This document shows positions 14,426-21,155 of a stretch of DNA of 64,000 bases, piece by piece. Within the stretch, counting starts at the first letter, position 1. Every line of letters starts with the position of its first letter. The stretch comes from Synergistetes bacterium ADurb.Bin155 (GTDB lineage Bacteria; Synergistota; Synergistia; Synergistales; Thermovirgaceae): assembly GCA_002070395.1 (NCBI GenBank), contig MWDE01000010.1, positions 1-64,000 of the forward strand, given 5' to 3'. The position numbers and the translations under genes are program-made. The notes below the pieces were generated by a model. The model was given only the letters and a program-made list of their open reading frames with translations. It did no database searches and was not told where the DNA came from.

Positions 14426-15934
14426 TTACCGGGACCAGTGCGAGACCAGTTCCACGACGGCGTCGGCGGGCAGTTCCTCCCTGTTCCCGTCGGGCTTCCA
14501 TGCCTCGACGACGCCCTCCGAGGCTTCCCTGCCGACGACGATGGTCACGGGGAGGCCTATCAGTTCGGCGTCGGAGAATTTAACGCCCGCCCTTTCGTCC
14601 CGGTCGTCCAGCAGGACCCTGAAGCCCTTCTCTTCGAGTCTTTCGGCCAGGATGTTGCCCAGGCCAACGGCGTCATCGTTCCTCATGGAGGTCACTAGGA
14701 CGTTCACGTCCAGGGGCGCGAACCGGGGCGGGATCCTTTCACCCCCCGCCAGGGTGAGCGCCAGGGGGGTGACGCAGAAGGTCCCCTCCCAGCGGTGGGC
14801 CTTAGACAGGGCGCCCCCTTCGTCCTGGAAGGTCAGCGGCGACGGCCCCGGGTCCGTCACGGCCACGGCGACGCTCCTCAGGTAGGATGCCGCTATGGGC
14901 GAACCGCAAAGGGGGCAGGGGAAGCCCTCCTGCAGGCTGACCAGGTCCGCCGTGTCGGAAGCTTTGTAATCCCTCCCCCAGCAGGCGTTGAGCAGGTGGA
15001 ACCCCGGCCTGTTGGCCCCAGCGACCAGGCGGGAGCTGCCCTCGATATGGCGGTCGGCGAGGATGCGGATGCCGGCGGGGAGGCCGACGGGTCCCAGGTA
15101 GCCGGCCAGGTCGCCCACGGCTTCCCTGATCTCCAGCGGGTCGGCGAAGCGGACCACGACGCCGCCGAGAGCGTGGGACAGCTTCCGGTCGTTTACCTGG
15201 TGATCGCCCCTGGTGAGGACGGCCAGGATCTCCTTGTCGGTGCCCTGTTCCGCCGCGTAGAATAGGGTCTTCAGGGTCCGATCGGGGGTTATGCCCAGTT
15301 GCCTGCACAGCTCGGCGATGGTGTCCGCTCCGGGGGTCTCGACCTCTTCCAGGTGCGCCTCCTCGCCAGAAGGCCGAACCGTGGGGTAAACCGGGGCGGC
15401 GTCGTCGCCGCACCAGTCACAGGAGCGGCAGACGAACCCCTCCTTGGAGTGCCATGACCCCTTGTCGACGGCCAGGGCGACGTAGCTCCTCTCCTCCTCG
15501 ATGGTACGCCCGTCGCGGGGGGAGAGGCCCGCCTCGCGGCAGATCTTCCGGACGGTGTCGAGGAACCCGTCGCGCTGGAGCGCCGCTTCCCCCGCACCGG
15601 CCGCGAAACCGCAGGCGTCGATCCTCCTGGGGTTTCCCGACGCGAAGGAGAGGGGGAGCTGCCGGTAGCTCTTGACGTACCTGGCGGCGACCGAAAGGGA
15701 GTCACTCGCTATTTCGTTGAAGTCGACCATCTGGATGCCGGCCTCCCGGGCGAGGTCGAAAAAGGTGCCGGCGATCCCTTCCCAGAGCATCGATCCCAGG
15801 GGGAGCAGGCTCAATTCTCCCGTCTCGACGTCGGCCGCCGCGTAGCCCGCTCTCGCCATGCGCGCCACCGCAGGGTCGGAGAGACCCTTCGGGGCTTCCC
15901 TGGCGGTCGGGATGAAAGTCCTGGAAAAAAGCAT
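14426..15934 (-). CDS. Prolyl-tRNA synthetase-like protein lacking catalytic motifs, with editing domain
   Basis: 502 residues with the domain order of bacterial ProRS. The N-terminal class II part begins like ProRS (SRTFIPTAREAP, LLPLG) but is shortened. The TxE proline-binding loop (GPTHEE) and motif 2 (normally TKFRDE) are absent, replaced by RQLPLSFASGNPRRIDACG, and motif 3 (GIGVSR) is also absent. The YbaK/INS editing domain (about residues 195-350) is well kept, including the lysine in TLKTLFY that matches the editing Lys of E. coli ProRS. A zinc-type CxxC (FPCPLCG) and the C-terminal anticodon-binding domain (DDRDERAGVKFSDAELIG) are intact. It should not aminoacylate; I infer a trans-editing or regulatory paralogue. 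The start at 15934 follows GAGGAGG by 8 nt. There are no internal stops, so it is not an obvious pseudogene. Confidence 0.75.
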   Translation of the reverse strand: MLFSRTFIPTAREAPKGLSDPAVARMARAGYAAADVETGELSLLPLGSMLWEGIAGTFFDLAREAGIQMVDFNEIASDSLSVAARYVKSYRQLPLSFASGNPRRIDACGFAAGAGEAALQRDGFLDTVRKICREAGLSPRDGRTIEEERSYVALAVDKGSWHSKEGFVCRSCDWCGDDAAPVYPTVRPSGEEAHLEEVETPGADTIAELCRQLGITPDRTLKTLFYAAEQGTDKEILAVLTRGDHQVNDRKLSHALGGVVVRFADPLEIREAVGDLAGYLGPVGLPAGIRILADRHIEGSSRLVAGANRPGFHLLNACWGRDYKASDTADLVSLQEGFPCPLCGSPIAASYLRSVAVAVTDPGPSPLTFQDEGGALSKAHRWEGTFCVTPLALTLAGGERIPPRFAPLDVNVLVTSMRNDDAVGLGNILAERLEEKGFRVLLDDRDERAGVKFSDAELIGLPVTIVVGREASEGVVEAWKPDGNREELPADAVVELVSHWSR

Positions 15935-16096
15935 GGGAAGTACCTCCTCGCTGGTCGGCATTTTGTCGTGTCCCCTTTGGCCTATAAGTATAGTCCATGC
16001 CGCGGGTGGTTTTTCATCATTTCCTCCCCTTGGGTTATAATCGGATTCACTTGGACTGGACAGGCTCCCGGAGAACGCCCCCCGGGAGTGGGGGGC

Positions 16097-17221: not shown

Positions 17222-17743
17222 ATGGGCCGTTTCGGCATTCGGGAGGGGACGCCCGGCGATGTGCCGGTGATCCTGCGGTTCATCAGGGAACTGGCGGAAT
17301 ACGAGGGGATAGCTCACAGGGTGACCGCCACCGAGGAAGGGCTCCTGGAGACGCTCTTCGGCGACGCACCGGCGGCGGAGACCCTGCTGGCGTCGGTGGG
17401 AGGGGAGCCCGTGGGTTTCGCCGTCTTCTACCAGACCTTCTCCACGGTCCTGGGCAAGAGGGGGCTCCACCTGGACGACCTCTACATAAGCCCGAAGTGG
17501 CGCGGGAAGGGCCTGGGGACGGCGTTGCTCCGGCGCCTGGCGGCCATCGCCGTCCAGCGGGGGTGCGGGAGGTTCGAGTGGTGGTGCATGAAGGACAACG
17601 CCCCGGCCCTTGAATTCTACGACAGGATCGGGGCGCTGAGGCACGACGAGGTGTTCATTCTGAGGCTGCAGGGGGAGGCGATCGCGGCTTTCGCCGAAGG
17701 AGGGCCGACCCTGGGGTCTAACCCCAGGATCAGGAACCCCTGA
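17222..17743 (+). CDS. GNAT-family N-acetyltransferase
   Basis: 173 residues, one GNAT domain. It contains the acetyl-CoA pyrophosphate loop RGKGLGTALL (RxxGxG/A), the preceding strand LHLDDLYISPKWRG, and the late motif NAPALEFYDRIGA. It resembles diamine/amino-group acetyltransferases (FAVFYQTFSTVLGKRG), but the substrate cannot be named. The ATG at 17222 is used here. An in-frame TTG at 17201 has a better GGGAGG ribosome site and would add seven residues. Its 3' end overlaps the convergent SUI1 gene by 14 nt. Confidence 0.85.
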   Translation: MGRFGIREGTPGDVPVILRFIRELAEYEGIAHRVTATEEGLLETLFGDAPAAETLLASVGGEPVGFAVFYQTFSTVLGKRGLHLDDLYISPKWRGKGLGTALLRRLAAIAVQRGCGRFEWWCMKDNAPALEFYDRIGALRHDEVFILRLQGEAIAAFAEGGPTLGSNPRIRNP

Positions 17744-18161
17744 CGACCCTACCGGCACCTCTCTGGAGGAGCCACTTCTCGGCCCGCTCGGCGTTGTCCC
17801 CCTGGATGACCACCGACCCGTCCTCGACCCTGGCCCCGCAGCCCAGGGCCCTGCGGATCTCCCGGGCGAGGGGCTCCAGCGCCCCCGGCGAAAAACCGCC
17901 TCCAGGGGTGGAGAGGGTCGTCACGGTCTTACCGCCCCTCCCCTTTCTCTGAACCCTGAGGACGATCTTGCCCACACCGGCCAGGTCCGGGACCCCGCCT
18001 TCCGGGGCTGGGGCCGCCCCCGGCTTGGGCGGCGTGGCCTTCCGCGGGCCCTCGTCGGGGCCGGGAAACCCCAGCTCCCGCAGGAGGCCGCCCAGGACGC
18101 TCTCAGGGACCTCCTCGCTTGAGCCGTCGACGGGGACCCTCCTGGTTTTTTTGCCGGCCAT
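17730..18161 (-). CDS. yciH: SUI1/YciH-family translation factor homologue
   Basis: 143 residues. The N-terminal half is a low-complexity Pro/Gly/Glu-rich arm, longer than in E. coli YciH. The C-terminal half is a SUI1 (eIF1-like) domain with KIVLRVQRKGRGGKTVTTL, an LGCGARVEDGSVVIQGD segment and the final strand. Bacterial homologues bind the 30S subunit and influence start selection under stress. The ATG at 18161 is decided by GGGAGGGG 6 nt upstream. It is 29 nt after the candidate selenoprotein gene and appears to be the last gene of the htpG run. Confidence 0.85.
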   Translation of the reverse strand: MAGKKTRRVPVDGSSEEVPESVLGGLLRELGFPGPDEGPRKATPPKPGAAPAPEGGVPDLAGVGKIVLRVQRKGRGGKTVTTLSTPGGGFSPGALEPLAREIRRALGCGARVEDGSVVIQGDNAERAEKWLLQRGAGRVVRGS

Positions 18162-18190
18162 GGGTGACCCCTCCCGTCCCGGGCTACCGC

Positions 18191-18553
18191 TCATCGGGAA
18201 ATATAGTTCGTGGCGTAGACGACCTTCCTGTTGCCGGCGAAGCCCACGTCGAGGTCGATGCCCTCACCCCGAAATTGAAGGGAACGGTCCACCCATAGCA
18301 GGAACCCCTCGCCCTCGACGGCATCAAAGCCCGCCGTGTCCCCCGGGGCGCCGCCACGGACCGTGGCGGCAACCACCCTGGCTCAGCCGCTGGAAAGGGT
18401 CTCCGGTGCCAGGGTCAGTACGCTCCCCAGGTTGGCCATCTCGGCCTGGGCTTCCGGTGTGACCCTCAGTTCAACCTCGGCGGCCGCGGCATGACCGGCC
18501 GCGAAGGCCGCCACCGCCAGGAACGCCGCCATGACCAGGTATCCTTTCTTCAT
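18191..18553 (-). CDS. Candidate selenoprotein: secreted 120-residue protein with in-frame TGA at codon 57
   Basis: From ATG 18553 (GAGGAG ribosome site, about 10 nt) the frame encodes a signal peptide (MKKGYLVMAAFLAVAAFAAG) and mature sequence to LTLAPETLSSG. It meets TGA (18385-18383) and continues in the same frame with coding-like sequence (ARVVAATVRGG ... VVYATNYISR) to a second TGA at 18191. Twelve nt after the first TGA is a perfect 8-bp hairpin with loop GGTCC, as expected for a bacterial SECIS. The part after codon 57 has a spacing and strand pattern vaguely like HesB/IscA-like selenoproteins (weak, inferred). Alternatives are a nonsense mutation or a sequencing error. It lies between a J-protein gene (34 nt) and yciH (29 nt). 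Confidence 0.5.
18350..18370 (-). promoter_or_regulatory. SECIS-like hairpin after in-frame TGA
   Basis: On the minus strand GCCGCCAC-GGTCC-GTGGCGGC forms a perfect 8-bp stem with a 5-nt loop beginning GG. The loop starts 20 nt after the TGA, inside the range known for bacterial SECIS elements. The E. coli fdhF element has the loop GGUCU at a similar distance. The stem lacks the bulged U of fdhF. Confidence 0.5.
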
Positions 18554-18587: not shown

Positions 18588-18962
18588 TCAAAGGGATCCC
18601 CTGTACCGCCTGATATGCTCGTAGGCCTCCTGGACCTCCTGGAACCTCTTGGCGGCGAGGTCCACGAACTCCTTGTCCAGGTCGAGGCCGATGAACTTGT
18701 CGGGGTGGTACTTGGCTACCAGCCTCCGGTAGGCTTTCCTGATCTTCTCGTCGCTGTCGCCCGGCGAGCAGCCCAGGACCTCGTAGGGGTCCCGGGCGGG
18801 CCTCCCCCCGCCCGGAGGGGGCGGGTAGGATCGGTACCCCCCGGCGGCGCGGCGCCCCTCCTGGGCCGCCCATCGCCGGTACAGGTCCGTGAAGGCCCGA
18901 AAGGCCACCAGGACAAAGACGAGGGGAAGTACCAGCCTGACGAGACGGACGATGATGAGCAT
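18588..18962 (-). CDS. Membrane-anchored J-domain protein
   Basis: 124 residues. An N-terminal transmembrane helix ([17 protein letters not shown]) and a Pro/Gly linker lead to a C-terminal J domain ([18 protein letters not shown] in KYHPDKFIG, ending [11 protein letters not shown]). It resembles the DjlA/terminal-J-domain type that recruits Hsp70 to the membrane. The start ATG overlaps the stop of the preceding coiled-coil gene (TGATG), so the two are translationally coupled. The position downstream of htpG supports a role in the same chaperone network. A longer upstream start would run antiparallel to no known domain and is not used. Confidence 0.8.
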
Positions 18963-19228
18963 CAGACGCCCCCCCGGGCGACGGAAGGCTCCCCGTCGTC
19001 CAGGGTGAACTCCTCCAGCAGTTTGCGGGTCCGCTCGATATCTTCCCGCGTCTCGCGCAGCCACCGTTCCCGCAGGTCCTGGTCCATGTCCTCGGCCTTT
19101 GGGTCGGATTCCAGGAAGACCTGTTTTTTCTCCTGGATGGCCAGCCAGTCGCGGAGTTTTCTCTCCCGCTCGAGCCTCTCGCGGTTGAGACGAACCTCGC
19201 TGTCCTCATCGACGAACGCCCTGGACAC
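18962..19228 (-). CDS. Small charged coiled-coil protein
   Basis: 88 residues, highly charged ([39 protein letters not shown]), predicted as a helical coiled coil with no signal peptide. I recognise no family. GTG 19228 is chosen because GGGGGAGG lies 8 nt upstream; an ATG 15 codons earlier lacks a ribosome site. It is 55 nt after htpG and overlaps the J-protein start by 1 nt. It could be an adaptor in the HtpG/J-protein unit, but that is inferred from position only. Confidence 0.65.
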
Positions 19229-19283
19229 GGAGTCCACCTCCCCCGGGGATGTTGATGACCATGCCGGCGGCACGGCCAGTTAA

Positions 19284-21155
19284 TTATACCGGCTCCGACA
19301 GCAGTTCGGCGACCTCTCGGCTGAAGGCCGCGGGGTCGTCGAGCCCTCCCCCCTCGGAGAGGGTCGCGAGGCCGAAGAGGACCCTGGCGAACCTGGAGAC
19401 CCTTGGGTCGGAGGGGTCGGAATCATGGATGCCCTTCAGTTTCGTCACCAGGGGGTGGGAGGGGTTTATCTCCAGGTTCCTCTTCACCCTGGGGACCTCC
19501 TGCCCCGCCGCCCTGAGGAAGGCTTCCATCTGGGGCGTGAGGTCGAAAGCCTCACCCACGAGGCACGACGGCGAAGCCTTCAGGCGTTCGGAGAGTCTCA
19601 CTTCCTTCACTTCCCCCGAGAGGGCCTTGCCCAGGTCCTCAAGGAGAGCCTCCAAGCCTTCACCGGTGGCGCCGGCCTCACCCGCCCCCGCCGACGAGGG
19701 GACTTCGACGGCCCCCCTCGAGAGGGAGGTGAACTTCTTGCCCTTGTAGTCCTCCACCGCCGGGGACCATATTTCGTCCACGGGGTCGCTGAGTACGATA
19801 ACTTCGTATCCCTTTTCGGTGAAGACTTCCAGGTGCGGGGCGTTTTTGCCCACCGTCAGGCTCGGCGCCGTGATGTAGTAGATCTCTTCCTGGCCTTCGG
19901 GCATCCTAGCCAGGTACTCGTCGAGGGTCACAGGGCCGTCGGGCCCGGTCGTGTCGAAAAGGGAGACCTCGAGGATCCTGGCGCGGTTCTTCCCGTCGGA
20001 GAAGATCCCCTCCTTGAGGACCTTCCCGAAGTTCGCCCAGAAGGCGAGGTAGGCAGCCCTGTCCTCCTTCAGCATCGCCGAGAGGGAGTCGAGGACCTTC
20101 CTGGCGATGCTCCTCTTCATGGTCTCCACCTGCCGGTTCTGCTGGAGCATCTCCCTGGAGATGTTGAGGGGCAGGTCCTCGGAGTCTACGAGACCCCGGA
20201 GGAACCGGAGGTACTCGGGCACGAGTTCGCGGCAGTCGTCCATGATGAAGACCCGGCGGATGTAGAGCTGGACGCCCTTGAAGAGGTCCCTCGTGAAGAG
20301 TTCCAGCGGGGCCTTGGGCGGGATGTACAGCAGCGCCCTGAACTCCATCCCCCCTTCGGCCTTGAAAAGGACCCTCCTGAGCGGTTTGTTCCAGTCGTGG
20401 GTGATGTGCCTGTAGAACTCGTCGTACTCCTCCGCGGTGACCTCCTCTTCGGGCCTCGTCCAGAGGGCCTTCATGGAGTTGAGGGTCTCGAGGGAACCGT
20501 CGGCGGACTTCATCCGGATCGGCCAGGCCACGAAGTCACTGTAACGGCGGATTATCTCGCCGATCACCGGGGGGTCGGAGTAGTCCCTGGCGGTCTCGTC
20601 CTCCTCGTCCTTTTTCAGGTGAAGCGTCACCGAAGTCCCCTGGGCGTCGCGGGTGGTCTCCTCGAGGGTGTAGTTCCCGTCGCCAGCGGACTCCCATTTC
20701 CAGGCCGCGGCCTCGCCGGCCCGCCGCGTCACCAGGGAGACCCTGTCGGCCACCATGAAGGAGGAGTAGAAGCCGATGCCGAACTGGCCGATCAGCTCCT
20801 CCGGGAATGAGCCCGCGCTCTTACCCCGCAGCAGTTCCAGGTATTCCCTCGTGCCCGACCGGGCGATGGTCCCGATGAAGTCCACCAGTTCCGCCTTGGT
20901 CATGCCGATGCCGTTGTCGGAGACGGTCAGCGTCCGGGCCCCGGGGTCGACCTCGATGTGGATGTGGAGGTCCTCCGCGAGGGGGGCGAGGTTTTCATCG
21001 GTCAGGGCCTCGAAGCGCAGTTTGTCCAGCGCGTCCGAGGCGTTGGACACAAGTTCCCTGAGGAAGATATCGCGGTTGGAGTAGACGGAGTGGATCATCA
21101 GGTCCAGGAGTTGCCTGGCCTCCGCCTGGAACTGGAAGGTCTCTTTCTCTGGCAT
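19284..21155 (-). CDS. htpG: Hsp90 chaperone HtpG
   Basis: 623 residues, normal HtpG length. The N-terminal GHKL ATPase has [20 protein letters not shown] and [15 protein letters not shown]. The middle domain and the C-terminal dimerisation domain (through [10 protein letters not shown] and the final 60 residues) are present. The ATG at 21155 is preceded by AGGAGG. It starts 52 nt after the hsp20 terminator. It is followed on the same strand by a coiled-coil gene, a J protein, the candidate selenoprotein and yciH, all with gaps of 55 nt or less, which suggests one stress operon. Confidence 0.97.

Follow-up and report, generated by a model that had tools for sequence, protein, structure and literature searches.

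A predicted exported selenoprotein of the CC/Se motif family encoded beside htpG in a Synergistales genome

Selenoproteins, the SECIS-directed recoding of UGA and the CC/Se motif family of (seleno)proteins (NF041239) are already known. In the SECIS element of Escherichia coli fdhF the hairpin lies close behind the UGA and carries G-U in its apical loop. The HesB-like selenoproteins (TIGR01911) have a Sec residue which we take to occupy the GGGC position of HesB/IscA. Placement of the fdhF type behind the UGA has been described (PMC1794560), and the motif of the HesB-like selenoproteins is UxGP (PMC13188914). The NF041239 family is already listed as a predicted selenoprotein (‘Moor_selen_rel’, from Moorella thermoacetica) in the same 2026 review, in which proteins of differing Sec motif are split into separate subfamilies (PMC13188914). 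The Synergistetes are a known phylum rich in selenoproteins (PMC5029168). The locus described here adds, as far as the literature shows and with earlier notice possible, an exported branch of the NF041239 family, a chaperone-gene neighbourhood that is kept with it, and the assignment of the family to the IscA fold.

The window, i.e. the whole 64,000-nucleotide stretch of DNA that was analysed, lies on contig 10 of a 1.9-Mb Synergistales MAG (80 contigs, 88% complete). The features discussed below are the following, all on the reverse strand (genomes are given as G numbers, G000 being the window's own).

18191..18553 (-), predicted selenoprotein gene: ATG at 18553, Sec-UGA at codon 57, stop TGA at 18193-18191
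18479..18553 (-), N-terminal signal peptide or anchor, MKKGYLVMAAFLAVAAFAAGHAAAA, assigned by inspection; the hydrophobic N-terminus is kept in orthologues
18383..18385 (-), in-frame TGA, codon 57, in the column common to the TGA of 44 homologous sequences and IscA Cys35
18350..18370 (-), predicted bacterial SECIS hairpin: stem 18370-18362/18358-18350, conserved G-U (18361-18360) in the apical loop
18588..19064 (-), J-domain protein with a hydrophobic N-terminal segment, DjlA-like, directly upstream of the selenoprotein gene
18962..19273 (-), orf103, a small conserved protein, in every case immediately before the J-protein gene
19284..21155 (-), htpG (Hsp90)
17730..18194 (-), YciH/SUI1-domain gene; one possible start, ATG 18194, shares bases with the selenoprotein stop (ATGA)

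The product would be a 120-residue protein that contains no Cys and consists of a predicted exported, IscA-fold domain behind an N-terminus, MKKGYLVMAAFLAVAAFAAGHAAAA, which by eye is a typical signal peptide. A sequence-only reading of this DNA had proposed the start at 18553, the signal peptide, the TGA at codon 57 and the terminal TGA, all of which are borne out by the reading frame. It had also counted 64 coding-like codons behind the internal TGA; the number is 63 (codons 58-120). The dN/dS ratio behind the TGA is ~0.16-0.28 and lies below that of the upstream half in every computable comparison (~0.18 versus 0.21 against G002, 0.17 versus 0.24 against G001), which indicates that purifying selection acts on the codons behind the TGA as it does on those before it, unlike in a dead tail.

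The hairpin, also present as the sequence-only reading had claimed, begins 12 nt 3' of the codon-57 TGA and has a perfect stem of 8 bp (18370-18363 with 18357-18350) with the loop GGTCC, or alternatively 9 bp with the loop GTC. Like the fdhF element it is close behind the UGA and has G-U in the apical loop, whereas its sequence is unrelated and its loop is of three (GTC) or five (GGTCC) bases. The Rfam model SECIS_1 (RF00031) matched nothing in the window's own genome and nothing in any control either. Among the 1,726 TGAs on both strands of the window, nine are followed at SECIS distance by a perfect stem of 8 bp or longer and 33 have a comparable reading-frame context (≥40 codons from an ATG up to the TGA and ≥50 codons behind it); only the codon-57 TGA combines the two, and the coincidence of hairpin and frame at this codon is not chance.

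The position of the stem is identical in all homologues, at the same distance from the TGA. Across 38 distinct sequences 86% of stem cells are paired, as against 36-52% when the stem is slid. The mean number of pairs is 7.73 of 9, compared with 3.3-4.75 for slid stems and 6.06 ± 0.17 in synonymous-codon shuffles (maximum 6.52, n = 500), a control chosen because the stem is itself coding. The covariation score of 0.344 (shuffles, 0.207 ± 0.014) was reached by none of the 500 shuffles. Double changes occur in five of the nine stem pairs, and within the window's clade the adjacent pairs 22-30, 23-29 and 24-28 go from C-G, U-A and C-G to A-U, C-G and G-C. The loop dinucleotide G25-U26 (18361-18360) is invariant in the 38 sequences.

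Searches of 151 related genomes gave matches in 34 with the window protein as the query and in 47 with NF041239, while a phylum-wide search matched 64 of 188 genomes, with one TGA in most of the matches. A single-protein scan of genome contigs returned nothing, and an alignment-based rescan of genome contigs revealed an orthologue in four named Synergistaceae/Thermovirgaceae MAGs. The TGA falls in one shared column in 44 homologous sequences, a figure that includes the window gene and a second copy in the same genome, and many of these sequences are only 20-30% identical. Orthologues linked to the J-protein gene carry the TGA in G002 (76% identity), G001 (64%), G004 (63%), G006, G007 and G009; with the window this makes seven in which the codon is kept at a synonymous change of ~0.6-1.8 per site. 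A common origin of all J-linked secreted forms was recovered in 28% of bootstrap trees. A read-level or single-nucleotide assembly error at 18383-18385, which the sequence-only reading had named as a threat, is rejected, as the TGA is present in the J-linked orthologue of six other genomes.

Cys occupies the UGA column exactly in one homologue from G064 (G064b); counting residues from the site places a Cys exactly there in a second, from G012, and a Cys lies within one residue of the site in five further homologues whose N-terminus is hydrophobic. G005 and G008, which belong to a different genus of the family, have TGG (Trp) and TCC (Ser), respectively, so Sec is dispensable in some relatives. 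A Trp codon with no hairpin had been named beforehand as evidence against recoding; Trp is found, but the hairpin is kept with it and TGA is the codon in the family's remaining orthologues. In the Trp and Ser orthologues 8-9 of the 9 stem positions remain paired, from which it follows that part of the stem may reflect conserved residues; the stem in these two may be a remnant or a by-product of such residues. Hairpin remnants have been reported for Cys forms (PMC1794560).

Components for Sec insertion are all encoded in the window's own genome. The selA gene (564 bits) directly precedes selB (337 bits), selD (345 bits) is present and itself contains an internal TGA, and the tRNA-Sec gene (selC, 77.5 bits) has the anticodon TCA according to ARAGORN. 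The sequence-only reading had looked to exactly these four genes, to Cys at the TGA position and to TGA with a conserved hairpin in related genomes for support, and each was found; its proposal of a selenoprotein is thus strongly supported. The codon-57 UGA is almost certainly read as selenocysteine, judging from the homologues, the covarying hairpin and the gene content. The in-frame TGA of selD (G000 contig 7:63140-64069) suggests that SelD is itself probably a selenoprotein. On contig 21, a TGA-containing stretch that resembles SelB proved to be the C-terminal portion of EF-Tu read beyond its stop codon, and was discarded.

The sole family model matching the window protein is NF041239 (24.1 bits, E 2.8e-5). 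The homology spans 75 residues, NF041239 recognises all 20 of the aligned members, and the Sec and Cys residues of the domain share a column; the 40-bit cut-off is exceeded in seven relatives and is not reached by the window protein. With Cys at codon 57 the score is 24.1 bits, and with Ala, Ser and Trp 19.6, 19.2 and 18.5 bits, so that Cys is favoured by 4.5-5.6 bits and the Sec column agrees with the family motif. The CC/CU pair is absent, the window protein having GU, and changing Gly56 to Cys raises the score to 28.5 bits (+4.4). Besides its lower score and the Gly in place of the first Cys of the pair, the protein differs from the family in its predicted signal peptide and in lacking both a CxxU motif and a C-terminal Cys. 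TIGR01911 gave no match to the window protein, which has UARV in place of UxGP; it shares with the HesB-like selenoproteins a related fold and, presumably, the Sec at the GGGC position of HesB/IscA, and differs from them also in its predicted export. Under the subfamily rule of the review (PMC13188914) the group of the window protein would form a subfamily of its own. We therefore regard the protein as a divergent, exported branch of the CC/Se motif selenoprotein family, with a probability of about 0.94 for the selenoprotein and family statements taken jointly; its export is predicted from the N-terminus and its biochemical role lies outside this figure. The sequence-only reading had known of no described selenoprotein in such an htpG operon. 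The wider family turns out to be listed already, and the novelty lies in the exported form beside htpG.

Three approaches relate the family to the HesB/IscA fold. PF01521 matches six of 20 family members, mostly weakly (best E 2.3e-5), and does not match the window protein, the best relative reaching 25.0 bits against a cut-off of 26.3. In hhalign comparisons with E. coli IscA, SufA and ErpA (reference sequences from NC_000913), Sec57 falls on IscA Cys35 at 90.9% probability, and a second alignment gave 90.0%. The AlphaFold2 model has a mean pLDDT of 86, and >90 over most of the domain; its top Foldseek matches are SufA and IscA (probability 0.99-1.00, E 4.5e-3 to 1.9e-2, TM 0.40-0.46), and with the lower-ranked DsrR included the ranges are 0.75-1.00 for probability and ~0.34-0.46 for TM. 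The E-values and TM-scores for IscA are modest. A profile search of solved-structure sequences gave chance matches only. The weak HesB/IscA-like pattern suspected from the sequence therefore holds at the level of the family, but not as a PF01521 match of the protein itself. Compared with the A-type carriers IscA, SufA and ErpA, the protein appears to share the fold and the position of Cys35, and differs in lacking the CxC tail and in its predicted export; of the IscA Cys set (35, 99, 101) it has only Sec57, at position 35. In 61 related genomes no standard HesB/IscA protein was found with PF01521 at E <= 0.001, and such proteins were found in nine control genomes.

The order htpG, orf103, J-protein gene, selenoprotein gene, yciH is shared by six genomes, G000, G001, G002, G004, G005 and G008. 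In G006, G007 and G009, at a protein identity of 28-31%, orf103, the J-protein gene and the family member are again together, and no yciH was found beside the family member. The J-protein is closest to J-domains of the DjlA type, and orf103 has neither a Pfam nor an NCBIfam match. A second possible yciH start at ~18162 has a ribosome-binding-like site of its own.

Were the gene an interrupted pseudogene, translation would truly end at the TGA and the codons that follow it would be a relic. That G005 and G008 have lost this Sec shows that function tolerates change and is what such a view would draw on, yet the low dN/dS behind the TGA, its retention in seven J-linked orthologues despite the synonymous divergence given above, and a hairpin with compensated pairs make it very improbable. 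No more credible is suppression or reassignment of UGA to Trp, Gly or Arg, with no Sec involved: the Trp codon of G005 would fit, but TGA is also the normal stop of the same gene, the genome has the complete Sec machinery, and distant homologues have TGA with the hairpin throughout, with Cys as the substitute elsewhere. It is also improbable, if less so, that recoding serves mainly to couple translation to the yciH start, such that selenium would tune YciH and the full-length product would be minor. The ATGA overlap at 18194-18191 and the adjoining yciH in six genomes are in its favour; against it, the protein sequence itself is conserved, no adjoining yciH was found in G006, G007 and G009, and the alternative start at ~18162 is available to yciH.

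If UGA is read as Sec, as we propose, SelB with Sec-tRNA(UCA) would bind the hairpin behind codon 57 and insert Sec, and without insertion the product would end at 56 residues. After export, the IscA/HesB-fold domain would present Sec57 where IscA has Cys35. As the mature protein has no Cys, and hence not the C-terminal Cys pair of IscA, Sec would be its only such reactive residue. We tentatively suggest that Sec57 serves in the cell envelope, either as a redox nucleophile or as a soft-metal ligand, and is reset by an outside thiol. The same selenoprotein might instead be an exported A-type Fe-S carrier with Sec57 as a cluster ligand, for which the IscA fold, the Cys35 position and the C-terminal Cys cluster kept by many relatives without a signal peptide would speak; we consider this unlikely for the window protein, as it has no Cys and export would separate it from cytoplasmic cluster assembly, and we rank the redox or soft-metal role above it. 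The J-protein, HtpG and YciH neighbours, the latter two in the nearer genomes, suggest a role in the stress response, and gene order suggests a link between the selenoprotein and the J-protein. That the exported single-Sec protein and the membrane J-protein would relay redox or metal stress from outside to DnaK/HtpG inside is a speculative and rather doubtful extension of this.

A predicted selenoprotein family without known function thus gains a branch that is exported and keeps a constant neighbourhood of chaperone genes, and a Sec at the Cys35 position of the HesB/IscA fold would give the family a structural frame and testable chemistry. Among relatives a single column holds Sec, Cys, Trp or Ser, which makes a natural series on the retention and loss of selenium. 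The family is probably under-annotated, since standard gene callers would cut its genes at codon 57.

Several further family members were observed. The window's own genome has a second CC/Se-like selenoprotein gene (contig 19:19935-20195) without a signal peptide; its TGA and hairpin are positioned as in the gene described here, and its product has a C-terminal Cys. The G005 and G008 genomes retain TGA in their other family member, and tandem members on G064 contig 1:2136737-2137451 have TGA (Sec) beside TGT (Cys) at the same site. More Sec relatives with signal-like N-termini (loci L106-L112, three of them in G017) occur in other Synergistales families, with motifs such as GFUCE and GFUGE. 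Elsewhere in the window, at 14426-15961 (-), a ProRS-like protein with editing and anticodon-binding domains, for which Pfam gave no match to a synthetase core, keeps its place in relatives (60-77% identity).
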